From Myxococcus sp. RHSTA-1-4 (GTDB lineage: Bacteria > Myxococcota > Myxococcia > Myxococcales > Myxococcaceae): 64,000 bases of DNA. Below, piece after piece: positions 9,185-64,000 of this stretch. The stretch spans positions 62,001-126,000 of the forward strand of contig NZ_JAIQDG010000019.1 in assembly GCF_020037125.1 (NCBI RefSeq). Reading direction: 5' to 3'. A program made the translations under genes and the position numbers. The notes beneath the pieces were generated by a model that saw only the letters and a list, made by a program, of their open reading frames with translations, searched no databases and was not told where the DNA came from. Numbering within the stretch: the first letter of the stretch is position 1; the number at the start of each line of letters is the position of its first letter.

Positions 9185-9262
9185 CCGGTGTTGGACTCCA
9201 TGACGCCGTGCTGGGGTGGCGGCGACACTGCCCCCGCCGCGGACTAGGTTGTGGCCTCCGAC

Positions 9263-10339
9263 ATGACGCCCACGCTCATCACCGCTCTCGCGTTCGAGCC
9301 GCTGCACCTGCCCCTCACCGAGCCCTTCGCCATCGCCACCGGGGCGCAGCACGCCGCGGAGAACGTGCTGGTGCGCCTGACGCTGGCGGACGGCACGCAA
9401 GGCCTGGGCGAGGCGGCGCCCTTCACCGCCGTCAGTGGCGAGACGCAGCACAGCACCCTGGCCGCGCTGGAGTCGGTGCGCGCGGGGCTGCTGGGCAGGG
9501 ACGTGCGCGCGTGGCGCCCGCTGTCGGAGTGGCTGGGGGACTCGCTGGCGCTGGCGCCCGCCGCGCGGGCCGGGGTGGAGATGGCGATGCTGGACGCGCT
9601 GGCCCGGCACCACCGCGTGCCGCTGTACGTCCTGCTGGGCGGGGCGGGGACGGTGCTGGAAATCGACATGACGGTGACGGCGGGCGACGTGGCGCACGCG
9701 CGCGAGTCCGCGAAGGCCATCCTCTCGCGAGGCATCTCCACGCTGAAGGTGAAGGTGGGGGCGCTGTCGCCGGACCAGGACGCGGCGCGGATGGTGGCCA
9801 TCCACGACGTGGCGCCCCGGGCCCGGCTCTTCGCGGACGCCAACGGCGGCTATGACGTGGCGGAGTCGCTGGCGTTCCTGAAGGAGCTGGAGCGGGCGGA
9901 CGTGCCGCTGTCGCTCTTCGAGCAGCCGGTGCCCGCGTCGGACGTGGCGGGCATGGCGGAGGTGTCGCGGCGCTCGAAGGTGCCGGTGTGCGCGGACGAG
10001 TCGGCGCGCTCGGCGAAGGACGTGCTGCGGCTCATCCGGGAGAACGCGGCGCACGGCATCAACATCAAGACGATGAAGTGCGGCGTGGTGGAAGCGCTGA
10101 CCATGTGGAGCCTCGCACGGGCGGCGGGCATGGAGCTGATGGTGGGCGGCATGGTGGAGAGCGTGCTGGCCATGAGCGCCTCCGCGCACCTGGCCGCGGG
10201 CCTGGGCGGCTTCACCTATGCGGACCTGGACACGCCGCTGTTCATCGCCAGCCACCCGTTCAAGGGCGGCGCACGGTACGAGGGCTCGCGGCTCGACTTC
10301 GACCCGGACGCACCGGGCCACGGCGTCACGCTGGCCTGA
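9263..10339 (+). CDS. Dipeptide epimerase (L-Ala-D/L-Glu epimerase-like, enolase superfamily)
   Basis: A 358-aa enolase-superfamily enzyme of the muconate-lactonising/dipeptide epimerase group. Catalytic pattern: KVK at residues 162-164 (general base), metal ligands D192 (ADANGGY), E220 (LFEQPV) and D245 (CADES), and second base K269 in INIKTMKCG. The INIK-M-K arrangement is that of Ala-Glu-type dipeptide epimerases, which act on murein peptides. I start at ATG 9263; a GTG at 9251 would add four residues. A 49-bp piece of this gene (9941-9989) recurs at 14796-14844. Confidence 0.85.
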   Translation: MTPTLITALAFEPLHLPLTEPFAIATGAQHAAENVLVRLTLADGTQGLGEAAPFTAVSGETQHSTLAALESVRAGLLGRDVRAWRPLSEWLGDSLALAPAARAGVEMAMLDALARHHRVPLYVLLGGAGTVLEIDMTVTAGDVAHARESAKAILSRGISTLKVKVGALSPDQDAARMVAIHDVAPRARLFADANGGYDVAESLAFLKELERADVPLSLFEQPVPASDVAGMAEVSRRSKVPVCADESARSAKDVLRLIRENAAHGINIKTMKCGVVEALTMWSLARAAGMELMVGGMVESVLAMSASAHLAAGLGGFTYADLDTPLFIASHPFKGGARYEGSRLDFDPDAPGHGVTLA

Positions 10340-10342
10340 CCG

Positions 10343-11149
10343 TCATGGCAGGACACCCTCGGTCACCGCGAGCCACAGCGCCTCGGAGAGCACATCCAGG
10401 GTGACGCCGGTATCGGTGCGCTGGGTGGTGGGTGAGGTGGACTGCCCCCTGGAGAAGGCCCTCAGGAACATCGGGAGCGGGCGGCGTCCGAGCCGCACCA
10501 GGCGCTCATCGTAGCAGGCCTGGGGTGCCTTCTCCTTCAACAGCGTCGCGAGCAGGAGCGTGTTCTGGAAGCGCCCCACTGCCTTGCTGGGGCCCAGGCC
10601 CGAAAAGTCCACCGAGCGCTCGTGCAGCGAGATGCGCTGGCCGCCCTTGCCGAAGACGTGGATGACCTGCTCGGTCTCCTCGTCCACCGCGGAGTCCCAG
10701 TTCCGGATGACCTCGCTGTGGGCGGTGATGCTGCCATCCAGGGCCATGCCGACCGTGGTCACCACCTTCCTGTGGATGAGCTCCTTCTCCGTGCGCGTCG
10801 ACACCGCGCCCCGCAGGATGGCGCCCACCTCGCTCCAGGCCAGCTCGACGGGCGCCCCGGCGCGCGGCAAAACGGAGAATGCCGCCGGGCCAAGGGTGAA
10901 GGTACGAGCCACCGTGCGCTGCTCGTCAGAGGGAGGAGGCATCCACGGCGCGACGACGCCGAGCCCGGCTCGGCGCAGCCTCTCCACCGCGGCGGCCGCC
11001 TCGTCGGGAGCAAGGAGCGCCAGGGGCGTGGGGGGCGCCAGGACGAGGCGCATCCGCCCCTCCTGGGGCGTGATGCCTGCGAGCTCTGCAACCTCCGTGG
11101 CCGCGGCATCCACGGACGTGCAGGGATGAACGAGAACCAGGAGCCTCAT
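10343..11149 (-). CDS. Hypothetical protein, 268 aa
   Basis: I do not recognise a family. The first 65 residues (starting MRLLVLVHPC) contain an alternating helix pattern ending VERLRRAGLGVV and could be a small alpha/beta domain; the centre has a strand-rich FTLGPAAFSVLP stretch followed by basic helices, and the C-terminal third includes a long helix GRFQNTLLLATLLKE. No signal peptide and no membrane segment, so cytoplasmic. It is convergent with the epimerase (3-bp gap). Codon use and GC skew look native, so it is probably a real lineage-specific gene. Confidence 0.6.
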   Translation of the reverse strand: MRLLVLVHPCTSVDAAATEVAELAGITPQEGRMRLVLAPPTPLALLAPDEAAAAVERLRRAGLGVVAPWMPPPSDEQRTVARTFTLGPAAFSVLPRAGAPVELAWSEVGAILRGAVSTRTEKELIHRKVVTTVGMALDGSITAHSEVIRNWDSAVDEETEQVIHVFGKGGQRISLHERSVDFSGLGPSKAVGRFQNTLLLATLLKEKAPQACYDERLVRLGRRPLPMFLRAFSRGQSTSPTTQRTDTGVTLDVLSEALWLAVTEGVLP

Positions 11150-11197
11150 CCGCGCGAATCTACCCGGGTCTCACGCCCTGACGCCTCCGGGGGTGCA

Positions 11198-11296
11198 CTA
11201 CCTCGCCGCCCCGCCCTCCAGGTGCGCCTTCAGGAGCTCCAGGCCGCGGGTGATGTTGTGCCGGATGAGGACTTCCGGTTGGACATTGATGCCCAT
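11198..11296 (-). CDS. Very small ORF or 3' gene remnant (32 aa)
   Basis: An ATG at 11296 preceded by GGGAG (6 nt) opens a 32-residue frame reading MGINVQPEVLIRHNITRGLE and ending LLKAHLEGGAAR. The composition is protein-like, but the upstream frame has no start, so it may be the surviving C-terminus of a decayed gene. It lies next to the duplicated kinase block, in a stretch (11150-11413) otherwise without genes. Confidence 0.25.
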   Translation of the reverse strand: MGINVQPEVLIRHNITRGLELLKAHLEGGAAR

Positions 11297-11413
11297 GACT
11301 GCTCCCGTGAGGCGGCGTGACGCGTTCGTTGCAGCCCCCGTCTTCAGCTACTGCCGGGCGAATGGCTCGATGCCATCGACGTGGAGCCGCACCTCCAGCG
11401 GCTGGCTCTTCCT

Positions 11414-12908
11414 GGACAAGAACAACCTGTGCCGCTGACTCCGCCAACTGTGTCAGTGAGCCGCTTCAGCGTCGGCAGCGTGCTCCGCTGGACTCGAGGT
11501 GGGCGGGCGCGCGGGTGGGATGACAGGCATATAGCAACTGCCCTTATACACGTAGCCGTCTTCGCCGCAGTCCTTCAGCTCCACGGTCAGCTTGATCCAG
11601 CAACCTCCGTTGATGGGCACCTGCGGCTTCCTGGGACAGCGGCCGTTGGCATCTGGCCGCCTCTGCCCCGGGAAGGGTCTGGGTGGCAGGTCCACGGCGA
11701 TGTGTAGCCCCTGCGAAGGGTCCCGAGTGATAGGCGCCGGAGCCGTCAGCACCGAGTCCCCGACGGCGACGGTGCCACCATCCCTGGCCTCTTCGGGCGC
11801 AGAAGCCTGCACCGTCCCGGTAGCTTCTCCGGGATGCGCGCTCCGCATCCACCCGGCTCCCAGAGCCAGTGCTCCCGCCAGGCTGGCGGCCGTGAACCAT
11901 GCGCGCCTGGAGCGCCCCATTGCTCGATGGGAAATGGGCCTGGGCGCGGCCCTGGCCTCCACGGGCCGAGACACCTCCCGGACGAAGAGGGGCACATCCG
12001 CTTCCGGCCCCGCCTCGCGCGCGGCGTGCTCCAGCGCCTCGGCCATCTCGCGCGCACTTCCGCGTGCCTCGGGGCTCACGGAGAGCATCCGGGACGTCAG
12101 GACACTCAACTCCTCGCAGCAGCGGGCGTTGACCGCTCGCACCAACGGGGGCGGGGCTCCCTCGTCGCGGGACGTTGGGTCCACCGGGGCAGGGTACTCG
12201 CCCGTCATGAGCCGGAACGCGGTGACACCCAGCGCGAAGACATCATCCGCCGGCCCGGGGGCGTAGGGCACGATGGGCTCGCGCATGGGCAGTTGCACCG
12301 AGCGCCACGCCTCCGGCGAACGGTAGGGCGGCGTCCCGGGCGGAAACGGCGGCTGCGTCAGCGTGGCGGCGCCAATGAAGTGCCCGGAGCTGAAGTCGGT
12401 GAGGAAGACCCGGCCGTCCGCCTCTCTGACGAGCGTGTTGTCACCCTTCACGTCGCGGTGAACGCCGCCCGCTGAATGCGTCGCCGCCAGGGCCCGCGCG
12501 AGGCTGGCGAGGGCGTGGAGCACCTGCCGCGAGGTGGGCTCGCGCTCCAGCGCCCAGTCATACAGCGAAACGCCGTCCACCAGTTCCATCACGAGGTACG
12601 GGAACTGCTGCCAGACGCCATGGTCCACGAGCCGTGGGACATGGGGATGACGGAGGCGGGAGAGCAGCTCCACCTCCCGCGCGAAGCGCTCGTTGCGAGG
12701 GTGCAGGGCCAGCTTGAGGGCCACGAAGCCGCGGGGGGCCTCCGCGCCGATGGCCCGGTAGACGGCCCCGTGGGCCCCCAGCCCGCGCCGCTCCAGCACG
12801 CGCCACGGCCCCACCCTCGTCCCCGGGGGAAGGCGCGCCGGATTCAGGTGGCCAGGCTGCATGCGTGCCTCGCGAGGAGATGCGCGGTCCATTCCGCTCG
12901 CCGGCAGG
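11414..12908. repeat. Duplicated kinase block, copy A
   Basis: About 1.5 kb that is near-identical to 14847-16342, from the shared edge TGGACAAGAACAACCTGTGC through the kinase gene and past its start codon to the bases CCGCTCGCC. The two copies are direct repeats, about 3.43 kb apart. Confidence 0.9.
11453..12862 (-). CDS. Membrane-anchored Ser/Thr protein kinase, copy A
   Basis: A 469-aa Hanks-type kinase. N-terminal kinase domain: glycine loop GLGAHGAVYRA, catalytic Lys in FVALKLAL, HRDVKGDN loop, then LTDFSSGHF where the usual DFG glycine is Ser, and YRSPEAW (APE-like). One membrane helix at about residues 320-340 precedes a Pro-rich linker and a cysteine-containing C-terminal tail (NGRCP, INGGCWIK, DCGEDGYVYKGSCY) typical of myxobacterial kinases and presumably periplasmic. 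The start ATG at 12862 has CGAGG 6 bases upstream; an ATG at 12892 would add ten residues. Its paralogue at 14887-16296 has the same length. Monocistronic. Confidence 0.9.
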   Translation of the reverse strand: MQPGHLNPARLPPGTRVGPWRVLERRGLGAHGAVYRAIGAEAPRGFVALKLALHPRNERFAREVELLSRLRHPHVPRLVDHGVWQQFPYLVMELVDGVSLYDWALEREPTSRQVLHALASLARALAATHSAGGVHRDVKGDNTLVREADGRVFLTDFSSGHFIGAATLTQPPFPPGTPPYRSPEAWRSVQLPMREPIVPYAPGPADDVFALGVTAFRLMTGEYPAPVDPTSRDEGAPPPLVRAVNARCCEELSVLTSRMLSVSPEARGSAREMAEALEHAAREAGPEADVPLFVREVSRPVEARAAPRPISHRAMGRSRRAWFTAASLAGALALGAGWMRSAHPGEATGTVQASAPEEARDGGTVAVGDSVLTAPAPITRDPSQGLHIAVDLPPRPFPGQRRPDANGRCPRKPQVPINGGCWIKLTVELKDCGEDGYVYKGSCYMPVIPPARPPTSSPAEHAADAEAAH

Positions 12909-13090
12909 CTACTGGAAGCGAAGGAGCGGCAGGGGCCGGCGGTGCACCGCGCGATGCGATTCCATGCACCGCCGGAGCCGGAGGCCATGCCGGTGAAGCG
13001 TGAGCTTCGTTGCTCCGGCCTGGCGCAACTCCCTTCGGCTCCACCGCATGGAGAGGAAACCGGGAGACGCCCATCGCCGCGGACGGCTCC

Positions 13091-13240
13091 CTACTGCACA
13101 GCGCAGAACTTGTTGATTTCCAGCGAGGTGCCCGGCTCGACGTAGAAGACGGCGTTGTTGCTGGTCTCGCGCCGGAGAGTGACGGGGCCGGTCGGGGTCC
13201 CGTCATAGTGCCAGAGCAGGTCCTTGAGCTGGAACTTCAT
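13091..13240 (-). CDS. Small hypothetical protein (49 aa) with strong ribosome binding site
   Basis: The ATG at 13240 is preceded by AAGGAGGAGG, the best Shine-Dalgarno in this neighbourhood. The product starts MKFQLKDLLWHYDGTPTGPV and ends EINKFCAVQ; no family recognised. The frame is open further upstream to 13396 but that part is antisense to the adjacent remnant. Could be a small regulator or another vestige. Confidence 0.4.
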   Translation of the reverse strand: MKFQLKDLLWHYDGTPTGPVTLRRETSNNAVFYVEPGTSLEINKFCAVQ

Positions 13241-13320
13241 GGCCTGCACCTCCTCCTTGAGGCTGCTCCGCCTCCCGCCGGACGAGGACTTCGTGCTCTT
13301 CACGTACCTGGGGAAGCAGG

Positions 13321-14306
13321 GTGGTGGTGGTGCGTCCATCCTTTGAAACACACCTGATTGCAGGCTGGGGCGGACGGCCGGGCGAGGACGGTGCATGGGG
13401 CGCGGTGGCGGGCGTGGGCGCGGATGCGCTGACGCCTGAGCTGGACATGAAGCTGCGGCTGGAGGTGCGGCGGCAGCACGCCGGCTTCCGGCAGGGCGTC
13501 TTCGGCCCGGACTACGAGCTGGCGCGCCTCCGGGCGGCGGGCCCTGACGGCGTGCCGCTGGCGGATGCGCCCTTCCCGGACGGATTCTCCGCCTACAGTG
13601 AGGCGGAGGTGGGTTGGGACGCAGTCAGCTATGGCGGTCTCCAGAAGCACCTGAGGCTGTCGATGGGCGCCGAGGCCTTCACCTCGGGCCGCTTCGACGT
13701 GGACGGGCGCGTCGCGATGCAGCTCTTCCAGCGCGACGTCGAGCTGGCCGTGAAGGGTCGAGGAGCGTCCGCGCGCCTCCGGCTCCACTCCGCTGGCCGT
13801 GGCAGGTCCCGAAGTGGGGGAGCGGCTGCATCGTCGCCAGGGGCCGCGTGACGACGCGACGGGGGCGGGCCCTGGCACCAAGGCGGGGGCGGTTGACGGC
13901 GGGCAGCAGAGCGCCACACAGGTTCGTCAGGAGATGCTCGCGGCCGTGGAGGACGTGAAGGGCTCCACGGACAACGTCGCCAGCGCGCTCGCCAAGCTGG
14001 CGGCCCGTCCACCCACCCCCTTCGGCACCTGGGACTGACCGGAGTCAGAGGCGTCTTCACCGGCAACCTCGCTTATGGCTCCAGCCAACTGTCCTGGCTG
14101 CACGGTGCGCTCGGGAGCACCAAGGCACTGGTCGCTACCGCCGAGGCAGTCTCGGACTCGGAGATGGAGCTGGGCATCCTCCGCTGGACGATGCAGAGAC
14201 CGCCGCGGGGCGGATGTTGACGCGAAGCGAGATCCTGAAAGTCGCCGCGCACCGCATGCGGAGCTATGGCATCCCGATGAACTTCTCCCGTTGGAGAGGG
14301 CGATGA
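13321..14306 (+). pseudogene. Frameshifted remnant of a large surface protein / toxin
   Basis: Protein-like sequence continues across this stretch but in changing frames. Frame 1 (about 13350-13770) reads a strand-rich, outer-membrane-like segment with GFRQGVFGPDYELARLRAAG and FDVDGRVAMQLFQRDVELAV. After a break, frame 2 gives QSATQVRQEMLAAVEDVKGS and AKLAARPPTPFGTW; near 14030 it moves to frame 1 (GVFTGNLAYGSSQLSWLHGA, ending MELGILR), and near 14180 to frame 0 (LDDAETAAGRMLTRSEILKV ... MNFSRWRGR, stop 14304-14306). At least three frame changes make it a pseudogene, unless sequencing errors are responsible. Its last codons overlap the next gene as ATGA, the arrangement of toxin/immunity pairs in this window. 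Confidence 0.6.
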
Positions 14307-14773
14307 CCGAGAAGAATACCTGGCGAGACAACTGGAAGGCCCGACTGTATGAACGCGTCCGCGAGCGTGGTTATGACTCGCTCGCCGCCTTCGCGAATGC
14401 CCGCCCCACTGCCTCACTGATTGCATTGGCCGAGGAACTCGGCGAGGACGATGTGAACGCGGTGCAGGTGTTCAGCGGGTTGGTGGCGGAGGCAGAGCGA
14501 AGCCATCAAGTCACACGCTTGGTGCGCGGGCAGCTCGTGCGCGAACTGTCCGACAATCTCCCTGACGGTTGGCCGGCAGTTCTGGACGACGCAAATCGTT
14601 TCGCCGTCGCCATGGCGTTCTCCTCGTGGCTTAGCTTCACCCCAGAAACCCATGAGGAGCGCGCCAGGCGGGTCATGGCAACGCTCCTCGCAACGCCGCC
14701 TCCGCCCGGCTGGCGCCCGCAAGGCCCCGAAGACGAGCTGCTCCGCACGCTGCTACCTGACGAAGAAGCCTGA
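14303..14773 (+). CDS. Putative immunity protein coupled to a decayed toxin
   Basis: A 156-aa soluble protein with ATG at 14303 (GGAGAGGG just upstream) overlapping the TGA of the preceding remnant. It begins MTEKNTWRDNWKARLYERVR and is mainly helical (FANARPTASLIALAEELGED; SHQVTRLVRGQLVRELSDNL), ending LLRTLLPDEEA. I do not recognise a named domain. Position, size, acidity and the 4-nt overlap make an immunity or chaperone role for the upstream toxin likely. The gene itself is intact while its partner is broken, as expected for immunity genes kept as protection. Confidence 0.55.
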   Translation: MTEKNTWRDNWKARLYERVRERGYDSLAAFANARPTASLIALAEELGEDDVNAVQVFSGLVAEAERSHQVTRLVRGQLVRELSDNLPDGWPAVLDDANRFAVAMAFSSWLSFTPETHEERARRVMATLLATPPPPGWRPQGPEDELLRTLLPDEEA

Positions 14774-14795
14774 CCGGCAACGACGGCCCGCTGCT

Positions 14796-14844
14796 GACCT
14801 GGCGGGCATGGCGGAGGTGGCGCGGCGCTCGAAGGTGCCGGTGT
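14796..14844 (+). repeat. 49-bp fragment of the dipeptide epimerase gene
   Basis: Bases 14796-14844 match 9941-9989 in the epimerase gene at 47 of 49 positions (residues ASDVAGMAEVSRRSKVPV region). The match stops exactly where the duplicated kinase block begins (14847), so it marks a recombination junction. Confidence 0.85.
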
Positions 14845-14846
14845 CG

Positions 14847-16342
14847 TGGACAAGAACAACCTGTGCCGCTGGCTCCGCCGGCTGTGTCAGTGAGCCGCTT
14901 CAGCGTCGGCAGCGTGCTCCGCGGGACTCGAGGTGGGCGGGCGCGCGGGTGGGATGACGGGCATATAGCAACTGCCCTCGTACACGTAGCCGTACTCGCC
15001 ACAGTCCTTCTGCTCCACGCTCAGCTTGATCCAACAGCCTCCGTTGATGGGCACCTGCGGCTTCTTGGGGCAGCGGCCGTTGGCATCCGGCCGCCGCTGC
15101 CCCGGAAAGGGTCTGGGTGGCAGGTCCACGGCGATGGTGGACCACGCGAAGGGCGCCCGGCTGAGAGGCACCGGCGCCGTCAGCACCGAGTCTCCGACGG
15201 CGACGGTGCCGCCATCCCTGGTCTCCTCCGGCGCTGAAGCCTGCACCGTCTCAGCCTCCTCTCCGGGATGCGTGCCCAGCATCCACCCGGCTCCCAGCGC
15301 GAGCGCGCTTCCGAGGCTGGCCGCCGTGAGCCAGGACCACATGGAGCGTCGAGGAGCTCGACGCGGGACGTGCCGGGGAGCGGCCCGGCCCTCCACGGGC
15401 CGAGACACCTCCCGGACGAAGAGGGGCACATCCGCTTCCGGCCCCGCCTCGCGCACGGCGTGCTCCAGCGCCTCGGCCATCTCGCGCGCACTTCCGCGTG
15501 CCTCGGGGCTCACGGAGAGCATCCGGGACGTCAGGACACTCAACTCCTCGCAGCAGCGGGCGTTGACCGCTCGCACCAACGGGGGCGGGGCTCCCTCGTC
15601 GCGGGACGTTGGGTCCACCGGAGCAGGGTACTCGCCCGTCACGAGCCGGAACGCGGTGACGCCCAGCGCGAAGACATCATCCGCCGGCCCGGGGGCGTAG
15701 GGCACGATGGGCTCGCGCATGGGCAGCTGCACGGAGCGCCAGGCCTCCGGCGAACGGTAGGGCGGCGTCCCGGGCGGAAACGGTGGCTGCGTCAGCGTGG
15801 CGGCGCCAATGAAGTGCCCGGAGCTGAAGTCGGTGAGGAAGACCCGGCCGTCCGCCACTCTGACGAGCGTGTTGTCACCTTTGACGTCCCTGTGAACGCC
15901 GCCCGCTGAATGTGTCGCCTCCAGGGCCCGCGCGAGGCTGGCGAGGGCGTGAAGCACCTGCCGCGAGGTGGGCACGTGCTCCAACGCCCAGTCATACAGC
16001 GACGCGCCGTCCACCAGCTCCATCGCGAGATACGGATACTGTTGCCAGACGCCATGGTCCACGAGCCGTGGGACATGGGGATGACGGAGGCGGGAGAGCA
16101 GCTCCACCTCGCGCGCGAAGCGCTCGTTGCGAGGGTGCAGGGCCAGCTTGAGGGCCACGAAGCCGCGGGGGGCCTCCGCGCCGATGGCCCGGTAGACGGC
16201 CCCGTGGGCCCCCAGCCCGCGCCGCTCCAGCACGCGCCACGGCCCCACCCTCGTCCCCGGGGGAAGGCGCGCCGGATTCAGGTGGCCAGGCTGCATGCGT
16301 GCCTCGCGAGGAGATGCGCGGTCCATTCCGCTCGCCAGCAGA
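14847..16342. repeat. Duplicated kinase block, copy B
   Basis: Direct repeat of 11414-12908. The kinase domain portion is nearly identical between copies; differences cluster in the transmembrane/juxtamembrane segment (about 15120-15400). The left edge abuts the epimerase fragment and the right edge lies just before the mannosyltransferase stop. Confidence 0.9.
14887..16296 (-). CDS. Membrane-anchored Ser/Thr protein kinase, copy B
   Basis: A 469-aa paralogue of the kinase at 11453-12862 with the same start context (ATG 16296, CGAGG upstream) and the same layout: kinase domain with GLGAHGAVYRA, HRDVKGDN and DFSSG, one membrane helix, Pro-rich linker, cysteine-containing tail (NGRCPKKP, DCGEYGYVYEGSCY). 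Substitutions are few in the catalytic domain (for example FPYLV to YPYLA) but many around the membrane helix, suggesting that the two may keep catalytic specificity but differ in input or anchoring. The catalytic Lys, HRD Asp and DF-Asp are all present, so it should be active. The open frame extends upstream into the mannosyltransferase region but the copy A comparison sets the start. Confidence 0.9.
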   Translation of the reverse strand: MQPGHLNPARLPPGTRVGPWRVLERRGLGAHGAVYRAIGAEAPRGFVALKLALHPRNERFAREVELLSRLRHPHVPRLVDHGVWQQYPYLAMELVDGASLYDWALEHVPTSRQVLHALASLARALEATHSAGGVHRDVKGDNTLVRVADGRVFLTDFSSGHFIGAATLTQPPFPPGTPPYRSPEAWRSVQLPMREPIVPYAPGPADDVFALGVTAFRLVTGEYPAPVDPTSRDEGAPPPLVRAVNARCCEELSVLTSRMLSVSPEARGSAREMAEALEHAVREAGPEADVPLFVREVSRPVEGRAAPRHVPRRAPRRSMWSWLTAASLGSALALGAGWMLGTHPGEEAETVQASAPEETRDGGTVAVGDSVLTAPVPLSRAPFAWSTIAVDLPPRPFPGQRRPDANGRCPKKPQVPINGGCWIKLSVEQKDCGEYGYVYEGSCYMPVIPPARPPTSSPAEHAADAEAAH

Positions 16343-16354
16343 CTTGAAGTGGTC

Positions 16355-17452
16355 TCAATACGCCCACTCGCCCAGGCCATAGTGCCGCGCGGTGGCCACA
16401 TTGAGCAGGAACAGGCCCAGCACCGCGGCGAACTGGAGCCAGCGTGGGCGCTTCGCGCAGCCGTCCCCGAGGAAGAAGAGCAGGGGGAAGATTGGCGCCA
16501 CGAACCGGAAGGTGTTGACGAACTCCCCCTGGAGCAGCTGAACCAGCAGGCAGAGGAGCGCGTAGAGCCCCAGCGCGGGCTGCCGGCGCGCGAGCAACAC
16601 GGCGCCGATGAGGAAGCCCCACCAGGCGACGTACCAGAGCACATTGTAGGGGTCGGTGCTCTGCCAGGGGTTTCCGAACACGAGCGTCTTCAGCGCCCCA
16701 CCGGCCGAGGCCACGTGCGCCCAGTTCTCCTGGGCCTTCATGAAGGCGAAGGGAGTGCCCGCGACCACATACTGGAACGTGAGGAAGCCCAGAATCCCGA
16801 GCGCGCCGAGGCCTCCCGCGATGAGCAACGCACGGACCCGGCGTGCCGGCGCCGTCTCCACCCAGGCCGCCAGCAGCGCCGACATTCCCACCACGAAGAC
16901 CCCCTGGTTGCGCGTCAGCGCGCACAGCGCGGCGAAGACGCCGCCCCACACCGGCCGCCGCGTCCCGCTGAAGAAGAACGAGAGGAACGACAGCAGCAGG
17001 AACAGCGACTCCGTGTGGTGCGAGTGGAAGACGTAGCTCACGGGCGAGAAGAGGAGGAAGAGCCAGCCCAGGCGGGACTTCGGCGTCAGCCCCTCTGGAG
17101 CATCCTCCCGCTGCGAAGCACGAAAACAGAAGAAGAGGAAGCCGGCGAACAACACGGTGGAGAACACCGCGCCCAGCCATTGAACCTCGGTGATGCCCAG
17201 GAGCTTCGCGAGGAACCCGACGGTGAGTGGATACGCCGGGTAGAAGGCGAAGAGTCCTCCACTGTAGCCGTCGCGCGCGATGGCCGTGTAGTAGGCCGCG
17301 TCCCAGTAGGACAGGATGTGCCCGAGCGACTGATGGCGCCGGAAGGCAATCCACCGCCAGATGGTCAGGTGCATGAACACCATGGCGACGGCACAGAAGG
17401 CGACGAAGCGGGCGCTTCCGGGGCGTGTCAGGTCGGTCAAGGAGGGGCGCAC
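16355..17452 (-). CDS. PIG-V/Gpi18-like membrane mannosyltransferase
   Basis: An about 365-aa polytopic protein related to GPI mannosyltransferase 2 (PIG-V/Gpi18) of the GT-C fold. Evidence: the luminal-loop motif SYWDAAYYTAIARDGYSGG followed by FAFYPAYPLTVG, then at least eight hydrophobic helices, and HSHHTESLFLLLSF. GT-C enzymes take sugar from polyprenyl phosphate and act on the outer face of the inner membrane. The real start is uncertain: the GTG at 17452 lies 18 residues before the first helix but lacks a good Shine-Dalgarno, and the frame is open to 17863. It ends close to the second kinase copy and is read the same way. Confidence 0.75.
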   Translation of the reverse strand: MRPSLTDLTRPGSARFVAFCAVAMVFMHLTIWRWIAFRRHQSLGHILSYWDAAYYTAIARDGYSGGLFAFYPAYPLTVGFLAKLLGITEVQWLGAVFSTVLFAGFLFFCFRASQREDAPEGLTPKSRLGWLFLLFSPVSYVFHSHHTESLFLLLSFLSFFFSGTRRPVWGGVFAALCALTRNQGVFVVGMSALLAAWVETAPARRVRALLIAGGLGALGILGFLTFQYVVAGTPFAFMKAQENWAHVASAGGALKTLVFGNPWQSTDPYNVLWYVAWWGFLIGAVLLARRQPALGLYALLCLLVQLLQGEFVNTFRFVAPIFPLLFFLGDGCAKRPRWLQFAAVLGLFLLNVATARHYGLGEWAY

Positions 17453-17719
17453 GGATGTCGACGTAGCCAGCGGGGGCTCCTGGTGGGAGGCGAGCGGCCC
17501 TGATTCCCACCCGGAGCAAACCCCTGTCAACGAGTACCCGACGCCGCGAAAGCTCCCGCCGGTGGGCGAAGCCCCGATGCTGCGCGCGCTCGTGTCACCG
17601 GCCGCGCCGGCCGAGGACGCCGTGCCCCGCCACGCCGTGACGGCGCGCTGAGTCACGGCGAAATCACCTGCGCCTCCCGGGAGCGCTCCCATCGGCTTTC
17701 CGGGTGGTACGCTGCGCCC

Positions 17720-39087: not shown

Positions 39088-39223
39088 CCCCATTCCCCTC
39101 CCGCCCCTGAGACGACGCTCCGCTGAAAAGAGCGTTCCTCCCGCGGCATTCTGTCTACTCCAGGGGTCTGACATGGCGGGGAGGCTGGGGCCCGCCACCG
39201 GTGAAGGACCTGGCGGGTCATGC

Positions 39224-39802
39224 GGAACGGAAGCTCCATTCCGCGCGTGGCGGCCCGGAGGAGCTGACACAGCGGAGAGGCGGGGCCCATGAGGGGTGAT
39301 CGACTGGCAGGCCCGGTGGAATGGAAGTTCCATTCCGCGCATGGCGGCCCGGGGCTGGCGTAGCGGAGAGGCCGGGTCCATGAGAGGTGAATGCCCGGCG
39401 GGCGGCGCGGAACCGAGGCTCCATTCCATGCATGGCAGCCCGGGAGCTGGCACGGCGTGGAGGCTGGGTCCATGCGAGGTGAGTGCCCGGCGGGCGGCGC
39501 GGAACCGAGGCTCCATTCCATGCATGGCAGCCCGGGAGCTGGCACGGCGGGGAGGCTGGGTCCATGAGAGGTGAGTGCCTGGCGGGCGGCGGGGAACCGA
39601 GGCTCCATTCCACGCATGGCAGCCCGGGAGCTGGCACGGCGGGGAGGCTGGGTCCATGAGAGGTGAGTGCCTGGCGGACGGCGCGGAACCGAAGCTCCAT
39701 TCCAGAACTGGGCGACTCGGGGGCTGAACATGCCGACGGGGGGAGGCAGGGCCGATGAGCGGAGAAGTCCTGGTGGGCCACGCGGAACGGAAGCTCCATT
39801 CC
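39224..39802. repeat. Seven-unit tandem array, about 92 bp per unit, palindromic 19-bp core
   Basis: Cores at 39224, 39318, 39409, 39501, 39593, 39685 and 39784 (each 19 bp; spacing 94, 91, 92, 92, 92, 99). The core is GGAACSGARGCTCCATTCC; the second unit, GGAATGGAAGTTCCATTCC, is a perfect odd palindrome. Between cores the DNA is also conserved (CATGGCAGCCCGGGAGCTGG, then GGAGGCTGGGTCCATGAGAG), strongest in units 3 to 6. The period is not a multiple of three and no frame is kept, so it is non-coding. The conserved inter-core DNA rules out a CRISPR. The array lies upstream of the TetR gene and fills the gap 39094-39830. Confidence 0.9.
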
Positions 39803-39994
39803 GGGCATGGGCGGCCCGGGGACAGGAGCCGGGGCTTCGCGGCTCCTCAATCTCCGGGCATTCGAACCTGCCCGAGTTGCCGTTGCTGCGACCGTGTGGC
39901 CGAGGCGGCTCCGCGACAGGGCGCATCCGCGTCTTGAATCAGTACGAGCCACCGAGCGGAGTCCGCCCTTGCGCGTCAGGAACCGTCCCTCGGC

Positions 39995-63113: not shown

Positions 63114-64000
63114 GTGTTGTCTCGCAACGGCCTTTCGCGCGCCCTCGTGGCAGCGCTCGCACTCCTCACCACGTCCGCGCTCGCCCAGGTGAGCGGCTCG
63201 GACGTCGCGGCCCCGCCCGCCGGGCAATCCGTGACGTCCCCGACCACCGCGCAGCCCTCCGAGCCGGTCGGCACGGTCGCCCCCGTCAGTGGAATGAACG
63301 TTCCTTCCACGGCTGCCGCTCCGGGCGCCTCCGCCGCGCCTCAGAGTGGAATGAACGTTCCTTCCACTGCTCCCGCCCCGGGCGCCCAGGCCGCGCCCCC
63401 GGGTGGAATGAACGTTCCTTCCACCGGTGTCGCCACCGCGCAGCAGCCCGCCTCCCCGGCGGACGGCACCACCGCGCAGCAGCCCGCGGCTCCCGTTGAC
63501 GGCGCGACGGCCCAGCAGCCCACGGCCCCCGCCGGCACCGCCACCGCGCAGCAGCCCACCGCCCCCGCCGATGGCGCCATCGCGCAGCCTGGCGACGCTG
63601 TCCCGTCCGAGGCCACCGCCTCCGAGGGCGACGCGATGTCCGACGAGGCGATGCTCGCGGAGTCCGCCGAGCCGCCCGCGGGCTTCACCGGCATCCACGG
63701 CCGGGTGGTGGACGAGGCCAACCAGGAGGGCCTCATCGAGGCCACCGTGAAGGTGGTGACGGGCGCGCAGAAGCAGGCCCTCACCGACCTGGACGGCAAC
63801 TACCGGCTGGCGCTGCCGCCCGGCAAGTACGACCTGCGCGTCTTCTATGACGTGTACCAGGGCCGCCGCATCACCGGCGTCGTGGTGACACAGGGCAAGG
63901 CCACGAAGTTGGACGTCGCCCTGAGCGCGGACGTGGGCGCGGTGCAGGAGGTCGTCGTCGAGGCCCGCGCGGACCGCCGCGCCGAGGGCGCCCTCCTCCA
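63114..64000 (+). CDS. TonB-dependent outer-membrane receptor (5' part)
   Basis: Begins VLSRNGLSRALVAALALLTT (signal peptide, cleavage near SALAQ) at GTG 63114, with AGGAG upstream, and runs out of the window. A 150-residue Pro/Ala-rich spacer carries three 19-residue repeats SGMNVPSTAAAPGASAAPQ and then TAQQP-type repeats. From about residue 185 a carboxypeptidase-regulatory-like domain starts (FTGIHGRVVDEANQEGLIEA; GNYRLALPPGKYDLRVFYDV) and continues towards a plug (GAVQEVVVEARADRRAEGAL). This N-terminal layout is typical for receptors dedicated to a TonB system, here encoded just upstream. Confidence 0.82.
   Translation, partial: MLSRNGLSRALVAALALLTTSALAQVSGSDVAAPPAGQSVTSPTTAQPSEPVGTVAPVSGMNVPSTAAAPGASAAPQSGMNVPSTAPAPGAQAAPPGGMNVPSTGVATAQQPASPADGTTAQQPAAPVDGATAQQPTAPAGTATAQQPTAPADGAIAQPGDAVPSEATASEGDAMSDEAMLAESAEPPAGFTGIHGRVVDEANQEGLIEATVKVVTGAQKQALTDLDGNYRLALPPGKYDLRVFYDVYQGRRITGVVVTQGKATKLDVALSADVGAVQEVVVEARADRRAEGALL
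63288..63461 (+). repeat. Three 57-bp direct repeats in the receptor gene
   Basis: Repeats start at 63291, 63348 and 63405, period 57 bp (19 codons). Each carries GTGGAATGAACGTTCCTTCC, a near-palindrome of 18-22 bp read as GMNVPST, followed by a variable Pro/Ala stretch. A further TAQQPA repeat region follows to about 63590. Confidence 0.9.

Follow-up and report, generated by a model that had tools for sequence, protein, structure and literature searches.

An epimerase-derived breakpoint scar in a patchwork of toxin-immunity genes beside a duplicated kinase in Myxococcus sp. RHSTA-1-4

We report that a short piece of epimerase DNA (14786..14844, + strand; core 14796-14844) found in the window, the whole 64,000-nucleotide stretch of Myxococcus sp. 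RHSTA-1-4 DNA analyzed here, is a genuine breakpoint scar, ordinary in kind, within a patchwork of toxin-immunity genes. The scar, presumably non-functional judging from its sequence, is joined to the edge of a duplicated block that contains a Ser/Thr kinase, which supports the proposal of an initial annotation that it marks a breakpoint of the kinase duplication. The kinase itself is not the joined partner: the fragment is fused to the tail of a TsiV-type immunity gene. No new element or mechanism is revealed. The junction serves as a marker of how myxobacterial immunity islands build up and wear down, leaving gene tails that abut with hardly a gap and, at this locus, a putative immunity ORF that has outlived its toxin.

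The epimerase fragment and its source

The source-like segment (9931..9989, + strand, approximately codons 228-246) lies within a dipeptide-epimerase-like gene of the enolase superfamily whose ORF is whole (9251..10339, + strand; PF13378, E 2.3e-43; PF02746, E 1.8e-14) and whose best NCBIfam model is L-Ala-D/L-Glu epimerase, at 277.7 bits, below the cut-off of 500. A repeat search within the window aligns 14786-14844 with 9931-9989 without gaps at 92% (54/59 bases). Over the core, 47 of 49 bases match 9941-9989, and the next-best 49-mer anywhere in the 64-kb window, on either strand, reaches at most 32/49. When 14760-14900 was searched against its own genome, the epimerase was matched at E 5.9e-18, which confirms that an epimerase word reappears beside the second kinase; the same search returned the flank of kinase A (E 2.0e-17), plus two weakly matching places (E 3.9e-4 and E 7.2e-4). 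The similarity may begin at 14786 and not at 14796, and its left end can be placed only to within a few bases: similarity to the DNA downstream of the SitI-like gene described below, which the fragment's left edge follows almost directly, reaches 14781 in locus L101 and 14790 in locus L100.

The word is not common, either in its own genome or in the 27 genomes of the genus that were searched. Matches to the fragment were obtained in 25 of these 27 genomes (own included; G007 and G018 gave none at that threshold), the stronger ones, kinase A's own flank aside, being epimerase orthologs, some of them aligned over more than 1000 bases, and the remaining ones being short, at E 7.3e-5 or weaker. 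Among the 27 genus genomes, this was the one place where a strong copy outside an epimerase was found. A common or dispersed repeat and a mobile element were considered and rejected on these searches, in which the strong matches, kinase A's flank aside, were epimerase orthologs.

Translated in the epimerase frame, the fragment yields 19 residues, all of which occur at their positions among 26 epimerases (own and 25 relatives), including the three that differ from the own epimerase, each present in other orthologs; two of its 19 codons occur in none of the 26. A random-substitution simulation starting from the own sequence reached this degree of compatibility with P 0.0066 under uniform and 0.0042 under transition-rich substitution when 57 bases, with homology from 14787, received 5 changes; the design is post hoc and depends on the homology of the first 10 bases (6/10 matching). 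For the 48-base core with 2 changes, P was 0.13 or 0.12; starting from the G012 sequence gave 0.00025 or 0.0001 for 8 changes, and again 0.13 or 0.12 for the core. The coding-compatible substitutions hint that the fragment stems from a second epimerase that once worked, or from a foreign allele, and not from freely decaying scrap.

TsiV-type tails and the two kinase copies at the junction

Both kinase copies are on the - strand: copy A, whose conserved part (11453..12898) belongs to an ORF at 11453-12988 (PF00069, E 3.4e-25), and copy B, with its conserved part at 14887..16332 (PF00069, E 3.3e-25). The A/B repeat starts at 11410/14844, within the final codons of a convergent TsiV-type gene (PF11876) that has decayed, and 43 bp before the end of the kinase B ORF at 14887. 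Since copy B thus begins in a TsiV tail, it is to this tail, and not to the kinase as first described, that the epimerase fragment is fused. A gap of 2 bases had also been described between fragment and kinase copy; it is absent, and fragment and repeat have the T at 14844 in common.

DNA comparison, PF11876 and tblastn all bear on the identity of the tail. Among 27 genus genomes, the query 11150-11480 matched three, namely its own, G035 (contig C6, E 8.0e-15) and G012 (C810, E 3.4e-10), and the latter two matches both span the 11410 position. In G035 the match falls on the 3' end of an open gene that faces a kinase ORF in convergent orientation, and the protein encoded by this gene (L116) is a TsiV (PF11876, E 3.5e-54). 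With this protein as tblastn query, its last 20 codons are found at 11397-11456 (E 5.6e-4), where a stop interrupts them, and its last 15 codons at 14846-14890 (E 0.001). Two remnants, each seen by DNA comparison and by tblastn, can thus be placed on the + strand: a decayed TsiV-type 3' end with an in-frame stop beside kinase A (11382..11459), and the TsiV-type remnant to which the epimerase fragment is fused, consisting of the final 15 codons plus stop (14845..14893). The tail beside kinase B is 91% identical to L116 in DNA over 53 bp. Of the nine own-genome matches to PF11876 that were listed, none is on C45; the remnants in the window are too short for the profile.

A TsiV match also faces a kinase of this family, 87-103 bp apart, at at least three further loci among the matches listed (G010:C1:7174595-7176943, G035:C6:71358-73696 and G000:C40:119547-121527), in the last of which the TsiV is split across two frames. 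From this sequence arrangement, the convergent TsiV-type gene and the Ser/Thr kinase may form a functional cassette.

Copies A and B are identical at 1387 of 1504 bases when flanks are included, at 892 of 920 in the kinase domain and at 44 of 48 in the TsiV tail. Identity is uneven: 100-bp windows vary between 72 and 100%. Two tracts, of 225 and 166 bp, are fully identical (within 12022-12902 vs 15456-16336), and other parts are at 72-87%. This patchiness suggests gene conversion or patchy recombination. The two copies are sisters in a whole-length tree of eight sequences (support 0.996), and over alignment columns of approximately 200-500 copy B is nearer to two other paralogs from the own genome than to A.

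Copy A has the longer flank on both sides. On the left it retains TsiV DNA beyond 11410; on the right, comparison with nine other kinase loci (L054-L062) shows the match extending further with A in eight, by 3-51 bp, with differences that are large at three loci only (L058, 51 bp; L059, 33 bp; L062, 32 bp), and equally far in one. Copy B therefore looks derived: it is probably a truncated copy and A the older one, which gives the likely direction of the kinase duplication. The upstream flank of copy B nearly abuts the stop codon of an ORF on the - strand (16355..17558), and the match of this ORF to G012 starts there too.

A patchwork between the epimerase and position 17701

The 7.36-kb interval from 10342 to 17700 is a patchwork that includes an orphan SitI-like gene, deleted SitB and SitA genes, the TsiV tails and a DoxX tail. 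At its left lies a 268-aa ORF (10343..11149, - strand) with no Pfam or NCBIfam family, for which the best match in 26 other genus genomes is only E 1.4e-5 over 39 bp. Between the kinases, 13321-14775 resembles locus L099 of G010 in three pieces, a locus in which SitB-like, SitA-like and SitI-like ORFs follow one another in this order. The pieces, all on the + strand, are a truncated SitB-like segment (13321..13757; 13360-13757 is 83% identical to L099 3594-3991, which lies in the latter half of that locus's SitB-like ORF), a SitA-like segment (13909..14183; 79% to L099 4443-4718) and an open SitI-like ORF of 156 aa (14303..14773; 14205-14775 is 73% to L099 5602-6172). The SitA-like protein of L099 matches DUF2380 (PF09533, E 2.3e-7), a domain linked to SitA. 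The SitI-like ORF matches no Pfam or NCBIfam family and the SitB-like ORF no NCBIfam family; position and similarity to L099 5700-6170 make the former a putative orphan immunity gene. From the SitA-like segment to the next matching segment there are approximately 20 bp here versus approximately 0.88 kb in G010, so that about 0.88 kb of SitA-like region is missing relative to L099 and a complete SitA toxin gene before SitI is absent. Since the SitI-like ORF alone is whole, 13321-14773 is a remnant, a decayed SitBAI-like cassette.

SitBAI toxin-immunity cassettes of myxobacteria have the order SitB-SitA-SitI (PMC5562445). The homologous G010 locus resembles them in this order and in its DUF2380 match, and the window differs in having lost pieces of its SitB-like and SitA-like parts, with the putative immunity ORF alone whole. 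A second comparison is with Vibrio cholerae T6SS clusters, where arrays of orphan immunity genes are attributed to sequential effector displacement, with immunity kept while effectors are lost (PMC5361080). The interval is similar to these arrays in its retained immunity ORF, lost effector parts and patchwork of gene tails, but a T6SS cluster did not turn up in it, a fragment from inside a metabolic gene is included, and the whole immunity ORF is SitI-like, with TsiV present as tails only.

To the right of copy B, the ORF at 16355..17558 appears membrane-protein-like by eye, is 88% identical to G012:C294:7438-8641 from its stop codon on, and has a weak NCBIfam match only (NF046093, E 1.5e-5, scoring 24.3 bits where the cut-off is 150). 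It is followed by the last 27 codons plus stop of a DoxX-like gene (17571..17651, + strand; DNA and tblastn) that is longer in relatives. The DNA of 17571-17658 has matches at that locus in G002 (E 4.0e-10), G012 (1.7e-8), G031 (3.1e-5) and G010 (3.7e-4), and tblastn recovers the tail at E 0.001 with the G012 protein and 0.023 with the G002 protein.

Sequence on the downstream side of the epimerase was read in 20 of the 26 other genus genomes (G001, G007, G016, G018, G036 and G037 were left out of this comparison). In 13 of the 20, only 16-171 bp separate the epimerase edge from the counterpart of 17701-17719, without a kinase; six others (G002, G010, G012, G031, G033 and G038) hold 2.0-12.8 kb between the epimerase and the 17701 counterpart, and in G035 a stretch of 16.1 kb did not extend to the far side. 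This kinase was not detected, at 70 bits or more, in the locus stretch read in any of the 20. The initial annotation had suggested looking for an ancestral order of epimerase followed by kinase; none of the 20 relatives shows it in the stretch read. With 13 of them nearly empty and lacking the kinase, and with the interval being a patchwork, an epimerase-kinase order is, on this sequence comparison, not the general ancestral one.

The site from the epimerase to 17701 (10342-17700) is a variable insertion spot. The blocks of G002, G010, G012 and G031 contain LysR-like and DoxX-like ORFs, which in G010 come after a 2003-aa ORF. Of these pairs that of G002 alone was scanned: its LysR-like protein matches PF03466 (E 1.2e-28) and its DoxX-like protein scores 22.2 bits against PF07681, below the cut-off of 23.6. 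The block of G038 carries a PAAR-like toxin gene (PF13665, E 1.3e-33). In the window, the present block may have replaced a LysR-DoxX block.

Origin of the junction

We lean, with slightly better than even confidence, towards a duplication of the epimerase-TsiV-kinase stretch in the same order and strand, followed by a loss of approximately 1.42 kb from the copy. A block with a convergent TsiV-immunity/kinase cassette would have lain downstream of the epimerase in this lineage, and a stretch from about 9931, inside the epimerase, to about 12913, through the TsiV tail and the kinase, would have been duplicated. The copy would then have lost the DNA from epimerase position 9989 to TsiV-tail position 11410, near a common GGAC(A/G)AG word, and the outcome would be the epimerase fragment, the TsiV tail and kinase B. 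Fragment and kinase B have the same strand and order as their likely sources. The spacing between fragment and source is 4855 and that between the kinase copies 3434; the difference, 1421, matches the size of the proposed deletion. The similar divergences of fragment, TsiV tail, kinase domain and whole block were counted for this scenario as well, as were the sister placement of A and B, copy A's longer flanks, the fragment's left edge following the SitI-like gene's downstream DNA almost directly, and the comparison with 96 family genomes given below, in which the own epimerase best matches the fragment and kinase A best matches B among the candidates scored. From these features we infer a single duplication event, the deletion step and their order.

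Tandem duplications remodelled by deletion at short homology are known in general bacterial genetics. The present case is like them in its copies in direct orientation, its truncated second copy and the weak short homology at the join, and unlike them in that a full-length intermediate is not seen here and the copies are 8% diverged, so that the event is not recent. The initial annotation had proposed a check of the breakpoint for microhomology: around GGAC, the epimerase and copy A agree at 7 of 10 positions in register, a weak signal that 5.0% of random position pairs reach and that does not exceed what chance allows. Searches beside copy B for remnants of 9990-11409 or 12914-14785 gave nothing convincing (best self-match E 0.012). 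The lack of convincing remnants and the 7/10 junction speak against the favoured reading. So do the uneven A/B identity, with B in part nearer to two other paralogs, and the coding-compatible fragment; these last two results weigh against a simple recent copy and would also suit a second epimerase of greater age or an allele brought in from outside. The routes originally proposed for the join, a circular intermediate or template switching, are not distinguishable here from a duplication with a later deletion.

An MMBIR-like template switch, in which a replicating end would have copied approximately 50-60 bp of the epimerase and then, after skipping 1.4 kb forward, the TsiV tail and the kinase, is in our view unlikely. 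Such a single event would never have produced a full-length second copy, and it fits two templates from one locus in the same strand and order, a skipped 1.42 kb that left no convincing remnant and an imperfect homology at the join; against it stand the frequency with which random pairs attain that microhomology and the coding-compatible substitutions (homology from 14787), which are unexpected in dead scrap.

We also give a low probability to an import in which the epimerase and TsiV-kinase cassette of an unsampled related strain would have been added at the locus and then trimmed, making the fragment and kinase B foreign alleles. The overall A/B identity is close to between-species level (94.2% between the G000 and G012 epimerases), part of B is nearer to other paralogs than to A, the three residue differences of the fragment are all found in other orthologs, and six of the 20 relatives hold blocks at the site. 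The kinase, however, went undetected in the locus stretch read in all 20 relatives, and no donor emerged from 96 genomes of the family, own included, searched at thresholds of 1e-8 (fragment) and 1e-200 (kinase B): no better match to the fragment than the own epimerase was found among the nine candidates scored per genome, and none to B better than kinase A among the three scored. A sampled donor genome was accordingly rejected for the candidates scored.

Less probable still is a reading in which a divergent second epimerase, functional at one time, came in with an immunity island from a related strain and survives as the fragment alone; the site downstream of the epimerase would then repeatedly admit kin-discrimination and T6SS cassettes by way of recombination in this housekeeping gene. 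That the similarity arose by chance, that the word is a common repeat or that the assembly is in error is very improbable: the match is far above chance level, the other strong genus matches sit in epimerase orthologs, a 59-bp repeat is shorter than usual sequencing reads, and, although the two identical A/B tracts (225 and 166 bp) might mislead an assembler working on short reads and the assembly comprises 134 contigs, any misjoin should fall within those tracts and not at 14844.

Elsewhere in the window, seven direct repeats spaced 91-99 bp apart occupy 39209-39822 (family D4; also D1 and D8), and 63259-63610 holds two short-period repeat stretches with units of 57 bp and 36 bp (D7 and D5), possibly a repetitive protein region.
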